Source: Actinomycetes bacterium
GTDB lineage: Bacteria; Actinomycetota; Thermoleophilia; BMS3ABIN01
Assembly (NCBI GenBank): GCA_021790115.1
Contig: JAJYIM010000013.1
Coordinates: 1-46,310 of the forward strand
DNA: 46,310 nt
Reading direction: 5' to 3'
The notes under the pieces: model-generated
What the model was told of the DNA's origin: nothing
Seen by the model: the letters and a program-made list of their open reading frames with translations, nothing else
Database searches by the model: none
In this document: positions 1,043-26,478 of the stretch, in pieces
Layout of the letters: each line of letters starts with the position of its first letter
How positions within the stretch are numbered: position 1 is the stretch's first letter
Position numbers and translations under genes: made by a program

Positions 1043-1504
1043 TCAAGCCTGATTCCGGCGGCCTTTCCGGAGAAGCTGCGCGGCGCCGCCGACGCCAATT
1101 ATCCCCGAGCCGGCCAGGAGCGCTATCGCTATGCCGGTGCTGGGAAGCGCCCCTCTGGAAGAAGAAGTTGAGGCAAGGCGGGTGCCGCAGCCCAGATTAT
1201 TGTAGACGGTGTTGTAATCGGTAAGCACTGACTCGTATGACGAGAGGCTGCTTAGCACCCCACATGAAGCAGCAAGCTGCGTGGAGTTATAACCGGCCAA
1301 GCTGCCGCCCGATGCGGCGGTATTATAGATGTTGATGAAATCCTGGGTGGAGATGCCGGCTTGTGCGGCCGCCCCCACAAGGGCGTTGTTGACGGCTGAA
1401 TATTGGCTGCTGCTGGTGCCGCTGGGGAAGGCCGCCAGCGCTGTCGCGGCAAGAAGCATCGTTATCGCCAAAACCAAAAAGAAGATGATTGCCATGCGCC
1501 GCAT
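1043..1504 (-). CDS. LPxTG-type (LPSTG) surface protein, probable sortase substrate
   Basis: A 153-residue exported protein. It has an N-terminal signal peptide (residues 1-25, basic MRRM then a hydrophobic core ending LAA) and a Ser/Ala/Asn-rich middle with two cysteines (81 and 106) that could form a disulfide. The C-terminus is a classical cell-wall sorting signal: LPSTG at 120-124, a hydrophobic stretch, then the basic tail RKGRR. Sortases cleave between T and G and attach the protein to the envelope. A sortase gene lies at 20359-21027, but its catalytic His is altered, so whether it handles this protein is open. The start is supported by a purine-rich site (AAAGGGTGG) just upstream. The function of the middle domain is unrecognised. 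Confidence 0.85.
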   Translation of the reverse strand: MRRMAIIFFLVLAITMLLAATALAAFPSGTSSSQYSAVNNALVGAAAQAGISTQDFINIYNTAASGGSLAGYNSTQLAASCGVLSSLSSYESVLTDYNTVYNNLGCGTRLASTSSSRGALPSTGIAIALLAGSGIIGVGGAAQLLRKGRRNQA

Positions 1505-17595: not shown

Positions 17596-17695
17596 GTTAA
17601 AAAAACCTCATAAATAGAACAGATTCAAACAAACCCAACGGCTTGATTTTATATATTATTGGTAAATCTTGCAAAATGGAATTACAACATCCTCG
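17596..17695. promoter_or_regulatory. AT-rich divergent promoter region of the polysaccharide locus
   Basis: This 100-bp spacer separates the two divergently transcribed polysaccharide units. It contains an AT-rich TATATATTATT run (about 17650-17658), a plausible -10 for the plus-strand ligase-like gene, and pyrimidine/AT-rich sequence upstream of the Wzz-kinase. No convincing -35 boxes can be picked out, so only the region, not the exact promoters, is claimed. Confidence 0.4.
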
Positions 17696-19315
17696 ATGAC
17701 TGCGCTGCCCGTTCGCTCCTTCCTTGATAAGCCTGCCGTGCCAATTACCGTTGCCACCGTGCTGCTTTTTTTACTGGAGGCATTCTCAATTTTCGCCAAT
17801 GGCGCATATTTTTTAGGGCCCATGACGCTGGACGTTATCGCTGCCTGGTTTTTATTGGCTGCCGTGGCATGGCTTGGACCCAACAGCGTCATCCAGCCCG
17901 GCTGGCCGATGATATCTTTGGGATTGCTGTTTTCTCTTTGGCTATGGAGCGGTGTTTCCATGCTTTGGACAATCTCTGCTGATCTGACCTGGGATGGTTT
18001 CAACCGCACCGGCGGATATGTTGCCATCTTTGCCCTGGGACTCTTTGCCGGAACAGACAAGCGCGCCAGGAATATTGCAGCTTGGATTTTTTTGGCCGCT
18101 TCTTTCGCCGCTGGCCTTTATTCTTTAGGGGTCAAACTGTTGCCTGCTGAGATAACAGATCCTAATGGACTTGGCCGGACTTCTATTCCGTTGGGATACA
18201 CAAACGCCCTTGGTTTGTTAATGGCGATGGCTTTTATAGTCGCCCTTTATCTTGCAGCCCGCCCGCAGGCTTTCTGGATAATGAGGATGATTGCCGCTGC
18301 AGCTGCGCTAATTTTTCTCCTCGGCCTGTTTTTTACCCTTTCCAGGGGTGCATTCCTGGCCTTATTTGCTGGCACGGCAACCTATTTTGCCTTGGTCCCA
18401 TTGCGATTGCGCAGCCTTACTATCCTGTCAATAGCGGGGGTCCCCGCATTATTAATCTGCTGGTGGAGCAATGCGCAGGTTGGCCTTATGAATCCAAGCG
18501 CTACGCTCACATTAAAATACCAAGCCGCATCAACATTGCGCCTCTATCTGCTGCTGGCGCTAGTTTTTGTAGGCCTGGTTTTCATTTTTGTATATCTGGC
18601 TGAATCTAAGCTGCATATTTCCAGTCGCAAAAAAACCATTGCCGGGGCTATTCTGATCGGGACGATTACGGTTGCATGTTTGACGTACGCCACTTTTTTT
18701 GCTACTTCCAAACCATCACTGCCTGCCTGGGTGGCCCAGGAATGGCACGCTTTTGCTGCATCGAAGCCAACAACTAATGGAGCCGACCGACTGCTCGAAA
18801 TAAGCTCGACGGTCCGGTGGCAATTATGGAAAGAGGCAATTACAAGCTGGAAAGAACATCCAGTTATCGGCCTCGGTGCGCAAACGTTCCCCTTGATTCA
18901 CTTGATGCAAAGGCAAAGGGGAGTCGCATTTGCTAAACAAGCGCACGGTGCTGAGTTTGATATCTTAAGTGAGCTGGGTTTGGTTGGCATTATTCTTGCC
19001 GGATCTTTTTTGTGCTTAACCATGGTTTTAGCGCTAAATAATTTTAGAAAGAATAAAGAAAACTCGCAGAGGGGACTGGCCGGCGCCCTGTTTTCAATGG
19101 CGATTATTTATTTAATACATTCTTCGTATGATTGGGACTGGAACATGTTTGCCCTGACTCTCCCTTTTTTCTTTTTTACCGGGGTTCTGGTGGGTTGGCA
19201 GCCGGTGACAGGCAGGGCGGCTTTGGGCGGCATACGGCATCAGCGGCTGGATGAACTAGACATAACTGGGCAAGGGCCGTTAAAGGGAAATAAAAACACC
19301 ACTTCGAAACATTGA
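17696..19315 (+). CDS. O-antigen ligase-type membrane protein (third of three)
   Basis: About 539 residues and ten to twelve membrane helices. FTLSRGAFLALFAGT lies in the helix preceding the outer loop, and the loop has STVRWQLWKEAITSWKEHPVIGLGAQTFP followed by AHGAEFDILSELGLVGIILAG, the Wzy_C signature region. The frame also allows TTG at 17669, nine codons earlier; ATG 17696 is preferred but neither has a clear ribosome-binding site. The C-terminal 45 residues are soluble and basic. It is divergent from the main cluster and followed by an epimerase gene. Being outside the Wzx/Wzy block, it may be the ligase that transfers the polymer to a cell-wall or lipid acceptor. Confidence 0.86.
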   Translation: MTALPVRSFLDKPAVPITVATVLLFLLEAFSIFANGAYFLGPMTLDVIAAWFLLAAVAWLGPNSVIQPGWPMISLGLLFSLWLWSGVSMLWTISADLTWDGFNRTGGYVAIFALGLFAGTDKRARNIAAWIFLAASFAAGLYSLGVKLLPAEITDPNGLGRTSIPLGYTNALGLLMAMAFIVALYLAARPQAFWIMRMIAAAAALIFLLGLFFTLSRGAFLALFAGTATYFALVPLRLRSLTILSIAGVPALLICWWSNAQVGLMNPSATLTLKYQAASTLRLYLLLALVFVGLVFIFVYLAESKLHISSRKKTIAGAILIGTITVACLTYATFFATSKPSLPAWVAQEWHAFAASKPTTNGADRLLEISSTVRWQLWKEAITSWKEHPVIGLGAQTFPLIHLMQRQRGVAFAKQAHGAEFDILSELGLVGIILAGSFLCLTMVLALNNFRKNKENSQRGLAGALFSMAIIYLIHSSYDWDWNMFALTLPFFFFTGVLVGWQPVTGRAALGGIRHQRLDELDITGQGPLKGNKNTTSKH

Positions 19316-20358: not shown

Positions 20359-21027
20359 TCAGGACTGGCGCAGGCTGGCGAAGGCCAGATTTGCCTGAAT
20401 AATCAGGCGGTGGGTGGTGTTCCAGATCGGATCGCAGGTGATCAGAGTAATTTCTTCGCTGCCGTCAGAATTTAGCACCGAGGTGTCCTCAGGTTGCGTG
20501 ATATGCTGATTTGTCACCGTGTAGTTAAAGTTACCGTAAGGAGTATGGAAAATAATCTCATCGCCTTTGTTGACATCATTTAGGTGCAGGAAGGGGGCGC
20601 CGTAAAGCACGCGGTCTCCGGCTATAGCAAAATTGCCGCCCATGCCGGGCAGCGGCGTTTCCTCCAGGTGCCCGGGGCCTTTGTGGAGGGCGTTGTCGTC
20701 AGAGCCTTCCACGACGATTACGTCAAGGCCAATTTTTGGAATTTCCAGGTCCCCGATTGTCTGCTCGCTGGTAAGCCGTGTTTTGTAGGCAAGCGCCAAT
20801 GCTCTGAGCTTGTCCTGGTTGGCGGCGCCCTGCAGCTTGGCCAGCACTGACTGGTTCAAAGCCAGGGAATCGGCCGACTGTTGGGCGTAATCACCGCGCA
20901 GGCTGCGCTGCTCGAAATAGCCGATAACCCACGTGGCCGGGATGTAAAGAATAAATCCCAACCCCACCAGGATTAACAGGAGACCAGCAATTTTATACTT
21001 ATTAAATTTCTTTATCTTGCCAAGCAT
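20359..21027 (-). CDS. Sortase family protein with Asp in place of the catalytic His
   Basis: 222 residues: basic N-terminus, one membrane helix (about 13-36), linker, then the sortase beta-barrel. The catalytic Cys is C198 in LITCDP and the transition-state Arg is R207 in TTHRLII. The segment that normally reads A-G-H-R-x3-G-A-P-F reads AGDRVLYGAPF here. The residue at the catalytic His position (138) is Asp, coded GAC where His would be CAC. All other class D/E-like features (LEIPKIGLDVIV, GPGHLEETPLPGMGGNFAI) are intact. The protein would be expected to anchor LPxTG proteins such as the one at 1043. The change may abolish activity, mark an unusual variant, or be a sequencing error. It diverges from the phosphatase gene at 21144. 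Confidence 0.9.
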   Translation of the reverse strand: MLGKIKKFNKYKIAGLLLILVGLGFILYIPATWVIGYFEQRSLRGDYAQQSADSLALNQSVLAKLQGAANQDKLRALALAYKTRLTSEQTIGDLEIPKIGLDVIVVEGSDDNALHKGPGHLEETPLPGMGGNFAIAGDRVLYGAPFLHLNDVNKGDEIIFHTPYGNFNYTVTNQHITQPEDTSVLNSDGSEEITLITCDPIWNTTHRLIIQANLAFASLRQS

Positions 21028-21143: not shown

Positions 21144-21920
21144 ATGCAATTTATCGATACCCATTGTCATATTATACCCGGTGTCGACGACGGTCCGGGT
21201 AACGCAGACGTCAGCCTGGAAATGGCGCGCCTGGCCGTGGCTGATGGTATCGGCACGGTTGTCGCCACTCCGCACGTGGTCGAAGGCTATTATCTGGGCG
21301 AAGACAGGGAGCTGCAGCTGCGCCGGCTGCGCAGCCTGTTTACAAGGGAAAATCTTGATTTGAATCTGGTTGCCGGCGCCGAAGTGCCGATGAGCCTCTG
21401 CGCATCAGGAGACGAAAATCTTCTCAAAAGGCTTTCCATTGGCGGCCGCTACCTGCTGATGGAACCATCGGAAACATCCATGGAGCAATTGGCAAAGTCA
21501 ATCTATCAGGTCAGGCTGTGCGGTCTTTATCCGGTGCTGGCTCATCCGGAGCGTTACAGCTTCGCTCATAATCAAATTTCCGCACTTGCGCAATTGCTGG
21601 GAGGCAATGATGTTTATATTCAGGTCACTGTCGCCGCCATTGAAGGCTTGTTTGGCAAAAGGGCGCAAAGGGCGTGGGAGCAGCTGGCGGCGGCCGGCAT
21701 TGTCCATTTGATTGGCACTGACGCCCATTCTGCGCGCTTGCGGGCGCCGCTGTTATCCGCCAGCTATGAAAAATTAAGCCGTCTGGCCGGCGATGAAGCA
21801 GCACGTGTCATCATGCTGGAGAATCCCGTCCGGATGCTTGCCGGTGAAAGACTTGCCTGGGCAAAGCCGTCCCCAAAAAGGGGATTTTGGCCGGGTCACT
21901 TTGCAAGGAGAAAAAGATGA
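21144..21920 (+). CDS. cpsB: PHP-type protein-tyrosine phosphatase (CpsB/YwqE-like)
   Basis: 258 residues of the polymerase-and-histidinol-phosphatase (PHP) fold. Metal-binding motifs are DTHCHIIPGVDDGP at the N-terminus, VATPHVVEGYY, LAHPERYSF, and GTDAHSARLR near the end. This combination and length match CpsB/Wzb-like phosphatases that dephosphorylate capsule BY-kinases in Gram-positive bacteria. The likely substrate is the Wzz-BY-kinase at 16024, about 4 kb away. A TACAAT box at 21062-21067 could be the -10 element, giving a leader of about 70 bases. A short alternating palindrome TTTTTTGATTCAAAAAA (21954-21970) follows the gene. The basic tail FARRKR is unusual but uninformative. Confidence 0.93.
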   Translation: MQFIDTHCHIIPGVDDGPGNADVSLEMARLAVADGIGTVVATPHVVEGYYLGEDRELQLRRLRSLFTRENLDLNLVAGAEVPMSLCASGDENLLKRLSIGGRYLLMEPSETSMEQLAKSIYQVRLCGLYPVLAHPERYSFAHNQISALAQLLGGNDVYIQVTVAAIEGLFGKRAQRAWEQLAAAGIVHLIGTDAHSARLRAPLLSASYEKLSRLAGDEAARVIMLENPVRMLAGERLAWAKPSPKRGFWPGHFARRKR

Positions 21921-23442: not shown

Positions 23443-24923
23443 CCGCGGCCGGCGGGAAAGGCAACCTGCTGCGGCTGAGCGCGATTGAGGCTCTCGGCCT
23501 GATCGGCAGGCAGGAGCTGACTGCTTCAGCCCTGACCGGCGCCTACCTAGCACAAATCAATCAACATGATAATGATGTATCAGCCTATCTGAGGTTGACT
23601 GCAACGGAAGCGCAACTGGAGGCCGCCGCCTTTGAGGCAGCCGCCGGTGAAGGCGCGCCGCCGCTGGCGGGACTGCCAACGGCAATCAAGGACGTGCTTG
23701 TAACTGAAGGCGTCATCACCACCTGCGCCTCCAGAATGCTGGAAAATTACAATCCTATTTATACGGCAACCAGCGTGCTGAAGCTGCGGCAGGCAGGCAT
23801 CGTCATGCTGGGCAAGACAAATATGGATGAATTCGCCATGGGCTCATCCACGGAAAATTCTGCTTTTGGGCCTACGCGAAATCCATGGGACCTGGGGCGC
23901 GTGCCCGGCGGCTCCAGTGGCGGCTCCGCCGCAGCTGTAGCGGCCGGCGAGGCAATCTGGGCGCTGGGCTCCGATACCGGCGGCTCTATCCGCCAGCCGG
24001 CGGCCCTGTGCGGCGTGGTCGGGCTAAAACCCACCTATGGCAGCGTCTCCCGCTATGGACTGGTTGCATTCGCATCTTCATTTGACCAGGTGGGGCCAAT
24101 CACAAAGACAGTCCGCGATGCGGCGTTAATGCTTAAATATCTGGTCGGCAAGGATGCCAATGACTCGACTTCGGTGGAACACCCGGACGAGATAGCCCTG
24201 CCTGAGGACCGGGATCTGGCCGGTGTACGCATCGGCATCGTGCGCGAGCTTGTCGGTAAAGGAATCGACGCCGAAGTAATGTCAGTTTTCAATCAGGCGA
24301 TAAAAAAAATGGAGGCGGCGGGGGCTCTTGTCAGCGAGGCCGGCCTGCCTCATGTTGAATATGCCCTGCCGGCTTATTACATCCTGGCGCCGGCCGAGGC
24401 CAGCGCCAATCTGGCCCGTTTCGATGGCGTCCGTTACGGCCTTCGGGCCGGCGGCGCGCATGCAGATGTCACGGAGATGTACGAGGAGACGCGCAGCCAG
24501 GGGTTTGGCGATGAGGTCAAGCGGCGGATAATGTTAGGAACTTACGCCCTTTCTTCCGGCTATTACGAGGCTTATTACGGGCAGGCGCAGAAAGTGCGCA
24601 CTTTAGTTGTGCAGGATTTTGCCGCCGCTTTTGCTGATGCCGACTTGCTTGTTTTGCCAACCGCGCCAACAACCGCTTTTAAGCTGGGAGAGAAAACAGG
24701 CGATCCCCTTACCATGTACAAATCAGACATCTGCACCATACCGGTTAACCTGGCAGGCCTGCCGGCGATTTCGATTCCTGCCGGGCTGGCGGGCGGCCTG
24801 CCGGTGGGATTGCAGTTGATCGGGCCGGCTTTTTCCGAGAACCTGCTTTTGCAAGCCGCCCATAGCGCCGAGTCCGTCATCGGCTTTGACAAGGTGTCGC
24901 CGTTGGTTAAACAGGCAGATTGA
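23439..24923 (+). CDS. gatA: Asp/Glu-tRNA amidotransferase subunit A (amidase)
   Basis: 494 residues, GTG start overlapping the gatC stop. An amidase-signature enzyme: catalytic Lys84 in TAIKDVL, cis-Ser159 in VPGGSSGGSAAAVAAG and nucleophile Ser183 in SDTGGSIRQPAALCGVVG, with the 24-residue Ser-Ser spacing seen in characterised GatA. It hydrolyses glutamine and passes ammonia to GatB for amidation of Glu-tRNA(Gln) and/or Asp-tRNA(Asn). The presence of the complete GatCAB set indicates that this organism makes at least one of these aminoacyl-tRNAs indirectly. Confidence 0.97.
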   Translation: MTAAGGKGNLLRLSAIEALGLIGRQELTASALTGAYLAQINQHDNDVSAYLRLTATEAQLEAAAFEAAAGEGAPPLAGLPTAIKDVLVTEGVITTCASRMLENYNPIYTATSVLKLRQAGIVMLGKTNMDEFAMGSSTENSAFGPTRNPWDLGRVPGGSSGGSAAAVAAGEAIWALGSDTGGSIRQPAALCGVVGLKPTYGSVSRYGLVAFASSFDQVGPITKTVRDAALMLKYLVGKDANDSTSVEHPDEIALPEDRDLAGVRIGIVRELVGKGIDAEVMSVFNQAIKKMEAAGALVSEAGLPHVEYALPAYYILAPAEASANLARFDGVRYGLRAGGAHADVTEMYEETRSQGFGDEVKRRIMLGTYALSSGYYEAYYGQAQKVRTLVVQDFAAAFADADLLVLPTAPTTAFKLGEKTGDPLTMYKSDICTIPVNLAGLPAISIPAGLAGGLPVGLQLIGPAFSENLLLQAAHSAESVIGFDKVSPLVKQAD

Positions 24924-25029
24924 ACGCGGGCATTCAGGCTTGTGCGCAGGCCCGAAAGACGCATGGCCTCAACCCCGCCAAAACATACATACAAATAAAA
25001 ACACCTAGGTCAAAACAAAGGAATATTTA

Positions 25030-26478
25030 GTGGAATTTGAACCGGTCATCGGTCTTGAGATTCACGTGGAGCTATCCACTGAGAGCAAGATGTTTTGTGG
25101 CTGCCGGGCAGAGTTTGGCGGCGAGCCCAACACCCGCTGCTGCCCGGTCTGCATGGCTCATCCAGGAGCGCTGCCGGTCGCCAACAAGAAGGCAATTGAA
25201 TATCTGGCCAGAATCAGCCTGGCGCTGAATTGTAATATCCCCGGGCGCAGCATTTTTCACCGCAAAAACTATTTTTACCCCGACCTGCCCAAAGGCTATC
25301 AGATTTCCCAGTATGACCAGCCGTTTGCAGTTAACGGCCAGCTTGGCATTATTTTTGATGACGAGCATATCAGTGTTGGCATCGAGCGCGTGCACATGGA
25401 GGAAGACACGGCCAAGAATATTCACGCCGGCAAGAGCGGCCGCATAGCGGGCGCCCTCTATTCACTGATTGATTTCAACCGCTCGGGCACGCCGCTGGTT
25501 GAGATTGTCACAAGGCCCGAGATCCACTCGCCGCAGGCGGCCCGGATATTTCTTAACAAACTCAAAAATTTGCTCAAGTATTTGGATGTCTCCGACTGCA
25601 ATATGGAGGAGGGATCGTTGCGCTGCGACGCCAATGTCTCTGTGCGCCCGGCCGGCTCCGGCACGTTGGGAGTCAAGACAGAGCTTAAGAACATGAACAG
25701 CTTTAAGCATTTGGAGAAAGGGCTGGCAAAGGAAATCGAGCGGCAGGTGGCCGTGCTTGAGTTTGGCGGGCAGGTGGTGCAGCAAACGGTTCATTTTGAT
25801 TTTGCCTCCGGCGAGGTGACGCCGATGCGCTCCAAGGAGTTTGCTCATGATTATCGTTACTTCCCGGAGCCGGACCTGGTGCCCCTGGCCGCCAGCAGCA
25901 GCTTTGTGCAAAAGATCACGGCGGACATGCCCGAGTTGCCCGACGAAAGAGCAAAGCGGTACATGGCTGATTTTAACTTGCCTGCCTACAATGCCGAAGT
26001 CCTGACATCCAGCCGCGAGCTTTCAGACTATTTTGAAGCGACACTTGCTTATTTCAACGACTCCAGGATTGTAAGCAACTGGCTTATGGGCGAACTGCTT
26101 GGTTACTTGAATGCCTCCGGCACAGAGCTGGCCGGCTGCCTGGTGACTCCAGCCGGCCTGGGAGGGCTCCTGAAGATGATCAGTTCCGGCGAGGTCAGTA
26201 ACGCCGTTGGCAAGGAAATCTTTATGGAGATGTGCAAGACGGGCGGTGCGGCGGAAAATATCGTCGCGGCCCGGGGGCTTACCCAGATTTCAGATGCGGC
26301 CGAGCTCGCCGCCATTGCCGAGCGGGTAATCGCCGCCAATCCGGCTCAGGCTGAGCAGTTTCGCGCCGGCAAGGACAAGGTTCTTGGCTTCTTTGTTGGG
26401 CAGATTATGAAAGAAACCGGCGGCAGGGCCAATCCCCAGGTAACCAGCAGAGTTTTAAGAGATAAACTGGCGGGCTGA
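25030..26478 (+). CDS. gatB: Asp/Glu-tRNA amidotransferase subunit B
   Basis: 482 residues with GTG start and AAAGGA about 8 bases upstream. N-terminal kinase-like cradle with PVIGLEIHVEL and the cysteine knob FCGCRAEFG...CCPVC (zinc site), VDFNRSGTPLVEI-type sequence, LRCDANVSVRP, and the family signature DYRYFPEPDL. The C-terminal YqeY-like helical domain contacts tRNA. It activates the misacylated amino acid with ATP and accepts ammonia from GatA. The next gene, a PEP carboxylase, starts only 3 bp after its stop, so the amidotransferase and carbon-metabolism genes are probably read as one transcript. Confidence 0.97.
   Translation: MEFEPVIGLEIHVELSTESKMFCGCRAEFGGEPNTRCCPVCMAHPGALPVANKKAIEYLARISLALNCNIPGRSIFHRKNYFYPDLPKGYQISQYDQPFAVNGQLGIIFDDEHISVGIERVHMEEDTAKNIHAGKSGRIAGALYSLIDFNRSGTPLVEIVTRPEIHSPQAARIFLNKLKNLLKYLDVSDCNMEEGSLRCDANVSVRPAGSGTLGVKTELKNMNSFKHLEKGLAKEIERQVAVLEFGGQVVQQTVHFDFASGEVTPMRSKEFAHDYRYFPEPDLVPLAASSSFVQKITADMPELPDERAKRYMADFNLPAYNAEVLTSSRELSDYFEATLAYFNDSRIVSNWLMGELLGYLNASGTELAGCLVTPAGLGGLLKMISSGEVSNAVGKEIFMEMCKTGGAAENIVAARGLTQISDAAELAAIAERVIAANPAQAEQFRAGKDKVLGFFVGQIMKETGGRANPQVTSRVLRDKLAG

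Follow-up and report, generated by a model that had tools for sequence, protein, structure and literature searches.

A family of uncultured actinobacteria carries sortases with aspartate at the catalytic histidine position

The DNA analyzed here, referred to as the window, is a stretch of 46,310 nucleotides from an Actinomycetes bacterium (assembly GCA_021790115.1, contig JAJYIM010000013.1). It carries a sortase gene within a polysaccharide cluster and, in another part of the window, a gene for a predicted sortase substrate (Table 1). The substrate gene is adjoined by a gene encoding a small secreted Gly/Tyr/Met-rich protein at 512-919.

Table 1. Features of the window discussed in the text, with position, strand and the evidence for each.
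Feature	Position	Strand	Evidence
Predicted sortase substrate, 153 aa (signal peptide, C-terminal LPSTG, hydrophobic segment, RKGRR tail)	1043..1504	-	Sequence; orthologues
O-antigen ligase-like membrane protein (Wzy_C), polysaccharide cluster	17669..19315	+	PF04932, 49 bits; near several group (i) sortases
Asp-type sortase gene, 222 aa	20359..21027	-	ORF list; PF04203, 112 bits; TIGR01076, 91 bits
Codon CGC, Arg207, catalytic arginine	20407..20409	-	Kept in 31/31 Asp-type sortases
Codon TGC, Cys198, catalytic cysteine of TLITC motif	20434..20436	-	Kept in 30/31 Asp-type sortases
Codon GAC, Asp138, catalytic-His position (AGDR, not AGHR)	20614..20616	-	Profile alignment; family census
Codon CAC, His120, sole invariant His of the Asp clade	20668..20670	-	Alignment; topology from PMC5148588
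CpsB/CapC-type phosphatase, conserved divergent neighbor of group (i) sortase	21144..21920	+	PF19567, 155 bits

The encoded sortase consists of an N-terminal membrane helix followed by a sortase domain at residues 94-214. The domain matched PF04203 with 112.2 bits (cut-off 26.6, E 1.7e-32), and the general sortase model TIGR01076 was matched with 91.2 bits (cut-off 39.35). Sortases are described as requiring a His-Cys-Arg triad (PMC5148588), and in SrtE1 of Streptomyces coelicolor the His of the AGHR/SGHR motif is the catalytic His251 (PMC5148588). Alignment of the window protein to solved sortases placed Asp138 on the His of this motif, and in the profile alignment all sortases sampled from beyond the host's family have His in the same column. 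The catalytic His expected after strand beta-4 is thus absent from the window protein, and Asp is found instead. A sequence-only reading of the window had claimed this substitution, along with intact Cys198 and Arg207; the former was borne out by both alignments and the latter by alignment and codon check. The site had been placed at 20612-20617, which is the right place, with a range that straddles the Asp codon itself. By homology, the window protein is a sortase but not a canonical His-Cys-Arg sortase.

Comparison with class-specific models indicated that the window sortase is outside classes C, D and E, as it scored below the cut-off of the class C model NF033745 (95.8 vs 160 bits), the class D models NF033746 (88.8 vs 165 bits) and NF058671 (102.2 vs 140 bits) and the class E model NF033747 (117 vs 160 bits). 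Class E, represented by SrtE1 (PDB 5CUW, 5GO5), gave the best-scoring of these models and shares with the window sortase the motif order GxGH, AGxR, TLxTC and R; class E-like His sortases from the same class of Actinomycetota are also the closest relatives in the tree described below. The window clade differs from class E in having Asp at the equivalent of His251, Ile, Leu or Met at the equivalent of Tyr229, and [LM]PxTG as the associated signals. The best PDB match was the class C/D structure 8T28 (E 2.4e-19; also 4D70). The sortase fold as judged by sequence, the TLxTC motif, LPxTG-type signals and, in one group of loci, an adjoining substrate gene are common to class C/D and the Asp clade, whereas the catalytic His is Asp in the latter and the scores lie under both the NF033745 and NF033746 cut-offs. 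An AlphaFold model of the window sortase, built with four sequences, reached a mean pLDDT of 44.9, which is too poor for any distance to be read.

The residue at the catalytic-His column was then counted in 31 sortases of the host's family (19 genomes in 7 genera, with no more than three paralogues in any one genome) and in 93 sortases that belong to other families of the same class and to many families across the phylum. Asp was found in all 31 family sortases, encoded by GAC in 29 and GAT in 2, and His in all 93 outside sortases. Homologues from the same genus, with 44-90% identity, all carry Asp, and the same residue is present in independently assembled relatives at 90, 86, 74 and 65% identity. 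The sequence-only reading had proposed a search for Asp in related genomes and had regarded His in all close relatives as evidence against its claim; the opposite was observed, all 31 family members having Asp. A DNA pattern for GDRxxYGxPF gave matches confined to the host's family among 396 phylum genomes sampled, whereas the His-type motif pattern had no match in any of the 19 family genomes. Profile search scores also separated the Asp type (at least 236 bits) from other sortases (at most 170 bits, all His among those read). Viral contigs searched with the pattern yielded no Asp sortase, and the matches obtained there were non-sortases. The host lineage is an uncultured actinobacterial family in which only Asp-type sortases were found.

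A fourth, divergent Asp-type paralogue was observed at locus L044 (G043:C16, about 24500-26300). It has Thr in place of the Cys (ITLITTDPSGR), and the AGDRVLYG motif is partly lost, as are other motif positions. It probably represents a copy that is decaying or truly dead, and offers a useful contrast to the conserved paralogues.

In a careful tree of 124 sortase sequences with 200 bootstrap trees, the Asp sortases formed one clade (support 100/98), with a single change in all 200 bootstrap trees and His-type sortases from another family of the same class as sister. The two closest pairs had dN/dS ratios (NG86) of 0.073 and 0.085, and ratios of 0.04-0.17 were obtained for pairs further apart, where dS is near saturation. 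In these sequences, Asp at position 138 is fixed, ancient for the host's family and under purifying selection. Eight further residues are fixed or nearly so together with Asp138, namely F133, V140, L141, L147, T194, T197, D199 and W202, positions occupied in the class's His-type relatives mostly by V, T, T, R, V, A, H and Y, respectively; F133, V140, L141, T194, T197, D199 and W202 are invariants that distinguish the clade. The alignment shows that the active-site neighborhood of the Asp clade has changed as a block with Asp138.

Among the histidines, His120 is invariant in the Asp clade (31/31) and falls at the end of strand beta-3 in the alignment, adjoining the class E Tyr position; its equivalent in SrtE1, H228, lies at the beta-3 end beside Tyr229 in the S3 subsite (PMC5148588). 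His120 is, however, also common in His-type sortases, indicating that it is no new compensating residue. The possibility of a variant enzyme using another base such as H148 or H175 had been raised in the sequence-only reading; a variant is the favored interpretation below, but these two candidates were rejected, as each is conserved in only 6/31 members. The neighboring residue 121, equivalent to the class E Tyr that serves LAXTG recognition (PMC5148588), is Ile, Leu or Met in all Asp-type members, as expected for enzymes reading LPxTG.

The gene neighborhoods divide the Asp clade into three main groups. Group (i), which includes the window gene, is located in polysaccharide clusters, with a CpsB/CapC phosphatase adjoining in all but one locus read and an O-antigen ligase-like protein often nearby. 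In group (ii) (L207, L208, L209, L210, L211 and L212), an ECF sigma factor with a fused zf-HC2 anti-sigma domain precedes the sortase in 6/6 loci, and an LPxTG gene follows the sortase in 4/6, a gene order that suggests stress-regulated surface display. An apparent sigma-sortase fusion in L212 was discarded, since a scaffold gap of N accounts for it. In group (iii) (L214, L215 and L216), the sortase is directly followed by another O-antigen ligase-like (Wzy_C) gene, and some of these sortases have a lipobox-like N-terminus (e.g. AGCGG) in place of a plain membrane anchor.

Typical substrates are retained in the family. The LPSTG of the window substrate is kept in its orthologues in most family genomes, and 40 distinct [LM]PxTG C-termini, each with motif, hydrophobic segment and basic tail, were collected across these genomes by a search model and filter that favor [LM]PxTG, a count that leaves room for other motifs. 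The same model applied at a stricter E-value to the sister family with His sortases gave few matches, and the filter retained none of them. The possibility that a hidden His-type sortase or an exosortase does the work was rejected, as the 19 family genomes yielded no His-type sortase and no exosortase above the cut-off; no alternative enzyme for LPxTG proteins is thus known there. Of the matches to the window substrate, L124 (G099:C83) has an in-frame TGA and L125 (G088:C13) an in-frame TAG, possibly close to the match end.

Since the sole sortases of these genomes are of the Asp type and typical substrates are kept, altered catalytic chemistry is more probable than a dead enzyme. The window protein is probably a functional LPxTG sortase belonging to a family-wide clade in which His was changed to Asp once, and at least three paralogue types that arose by duplication have since retained the change. 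We also lean, with somewhat less assurance, towards a working Asp-Cys-Arg (or Cys-Asp-His) site that replaces the His-Cys-Arg triad across the family and still anchors LPxTG proteins. The activity of the Asp-type sortases and the role of Asp138 are what we infer here from comparative data. Cys198 would still attack the sorting signal at its Thr-Gly bond, with the intermediate still stabilized by Arg207. Asp138 would take the part of the His imidazole, both in taking up the proton of the thiol and in protonating the Gly amine as it leaves. Support for Asp138 may come from the invariant His120, in an arrangement resembling that of microbial transglutaminase, whose Cys-Asp-His site is the nearest precedent. 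In the enzyme of Streptomyces mobaraensis, Cys64 is accompanied by adjacent Asp255 and His274 (PMC6265872). That enzyme is likewise an acyl-transferring Cys enzyme, but it reacts with Gln side chains and was not matched by sequence in this analysis, and the likeness is one of working principle only. An open-access literature search found no paper on a natural Asp-type sortase or on H120D. Against an active Asp site speaks the mechanism of Staphylococcus aureus SrtA, in which the Thr-Gly bond is attacked by the Cys thiolate and the leaving Gly amine receives its proton from the His120 imidazolium (PMC5578623). The triad is described as required (PMC5148588), and a carboxylate in place of the imidazolium would need a raised pKa for this role.

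The enzyme could also be active with Asp138 serving a structural or electrostatic role instead of acid/base catalysis, Cys198 being activated by His120, Asp199, water or the loop environment. The invariance of His120 and the new fixation of D199 in the Asp clade fit this explanation, which nevertheless appears unlikely, because His120 is present in most His-type sortases and so did not arise as compensation, and because an Asp138 that was merely tolerated should vary among members, whereas Asp occupies the position in every member over three paralogue types.

Alternatively, these proteins might have the sortase fold but no catalytic activity, and serve as chaperones, sensors or regulators by binding LPxTG signals or lipid-linked precursors, which we consider improbable. 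A residue regarded as required is indeed lost (PMC5148588, PMC5578623), and the ECF sigma factor with its anti-sigma zinc finger before the group (ii) genes could suit a sensor. A dead fold, however, would have no need of Cys198 and Arg207, yet both are kept in 30/31, and no sortase would be left to process the many LPxTG proteins. The lone Cys-less paralogue, L044, has lost further motif positions too, as expected of a decaying copy. The regulatory pseudo-enzyme suggested by the sequence-only reading is therefore graded unlikely, as these genomes have no other sortase but many LPxTG substrates.

It is more doubtful still, and hardly to be expected, that Cys-dependent cleavage of the signal was kept while efficient transpeptidation was lost, which would leave a protein-releasing signal protease or a slow hydrolase. 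A carboxylate could conceivably act as the base in acylation and yet manage deacylation by an amine poorly, but no sequence feature indicates hydrolysis, and the sortase-substrate neighborhood of group (ii) resembles ordinary anchoring operons.

A recent inactivating mutation or a sequencing error limited to the window gene, both offered in the sequence-only reading and conceivable as GAC and CAC are one base apart, is refuted almost beyond doubt by the identical Asp in all family genomes, separately assembled MAGs included, by the use of both Asp codons and by the purifying selection acting on the 31 family sortases.

The usual view that sortases rely on a Cys-His ion pair with reverse protonation underlies sortase mechanism, inhibitor design and protein-ligation engineering. 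The analysis corrects the annotation of genes that otherwise pass as ordinary sortases or are dismissed as pseudogenes, and Asp-type sortases may be a source of ligases whose pH profile differs. A clade that is without the His but retains the Cys, the Arg and the substrates makes the role of the sortase His directly testable. If the proposed reading is true, the imidazole of sortase has been exchanged for a carboxylate in nature across a whole bacterial family.
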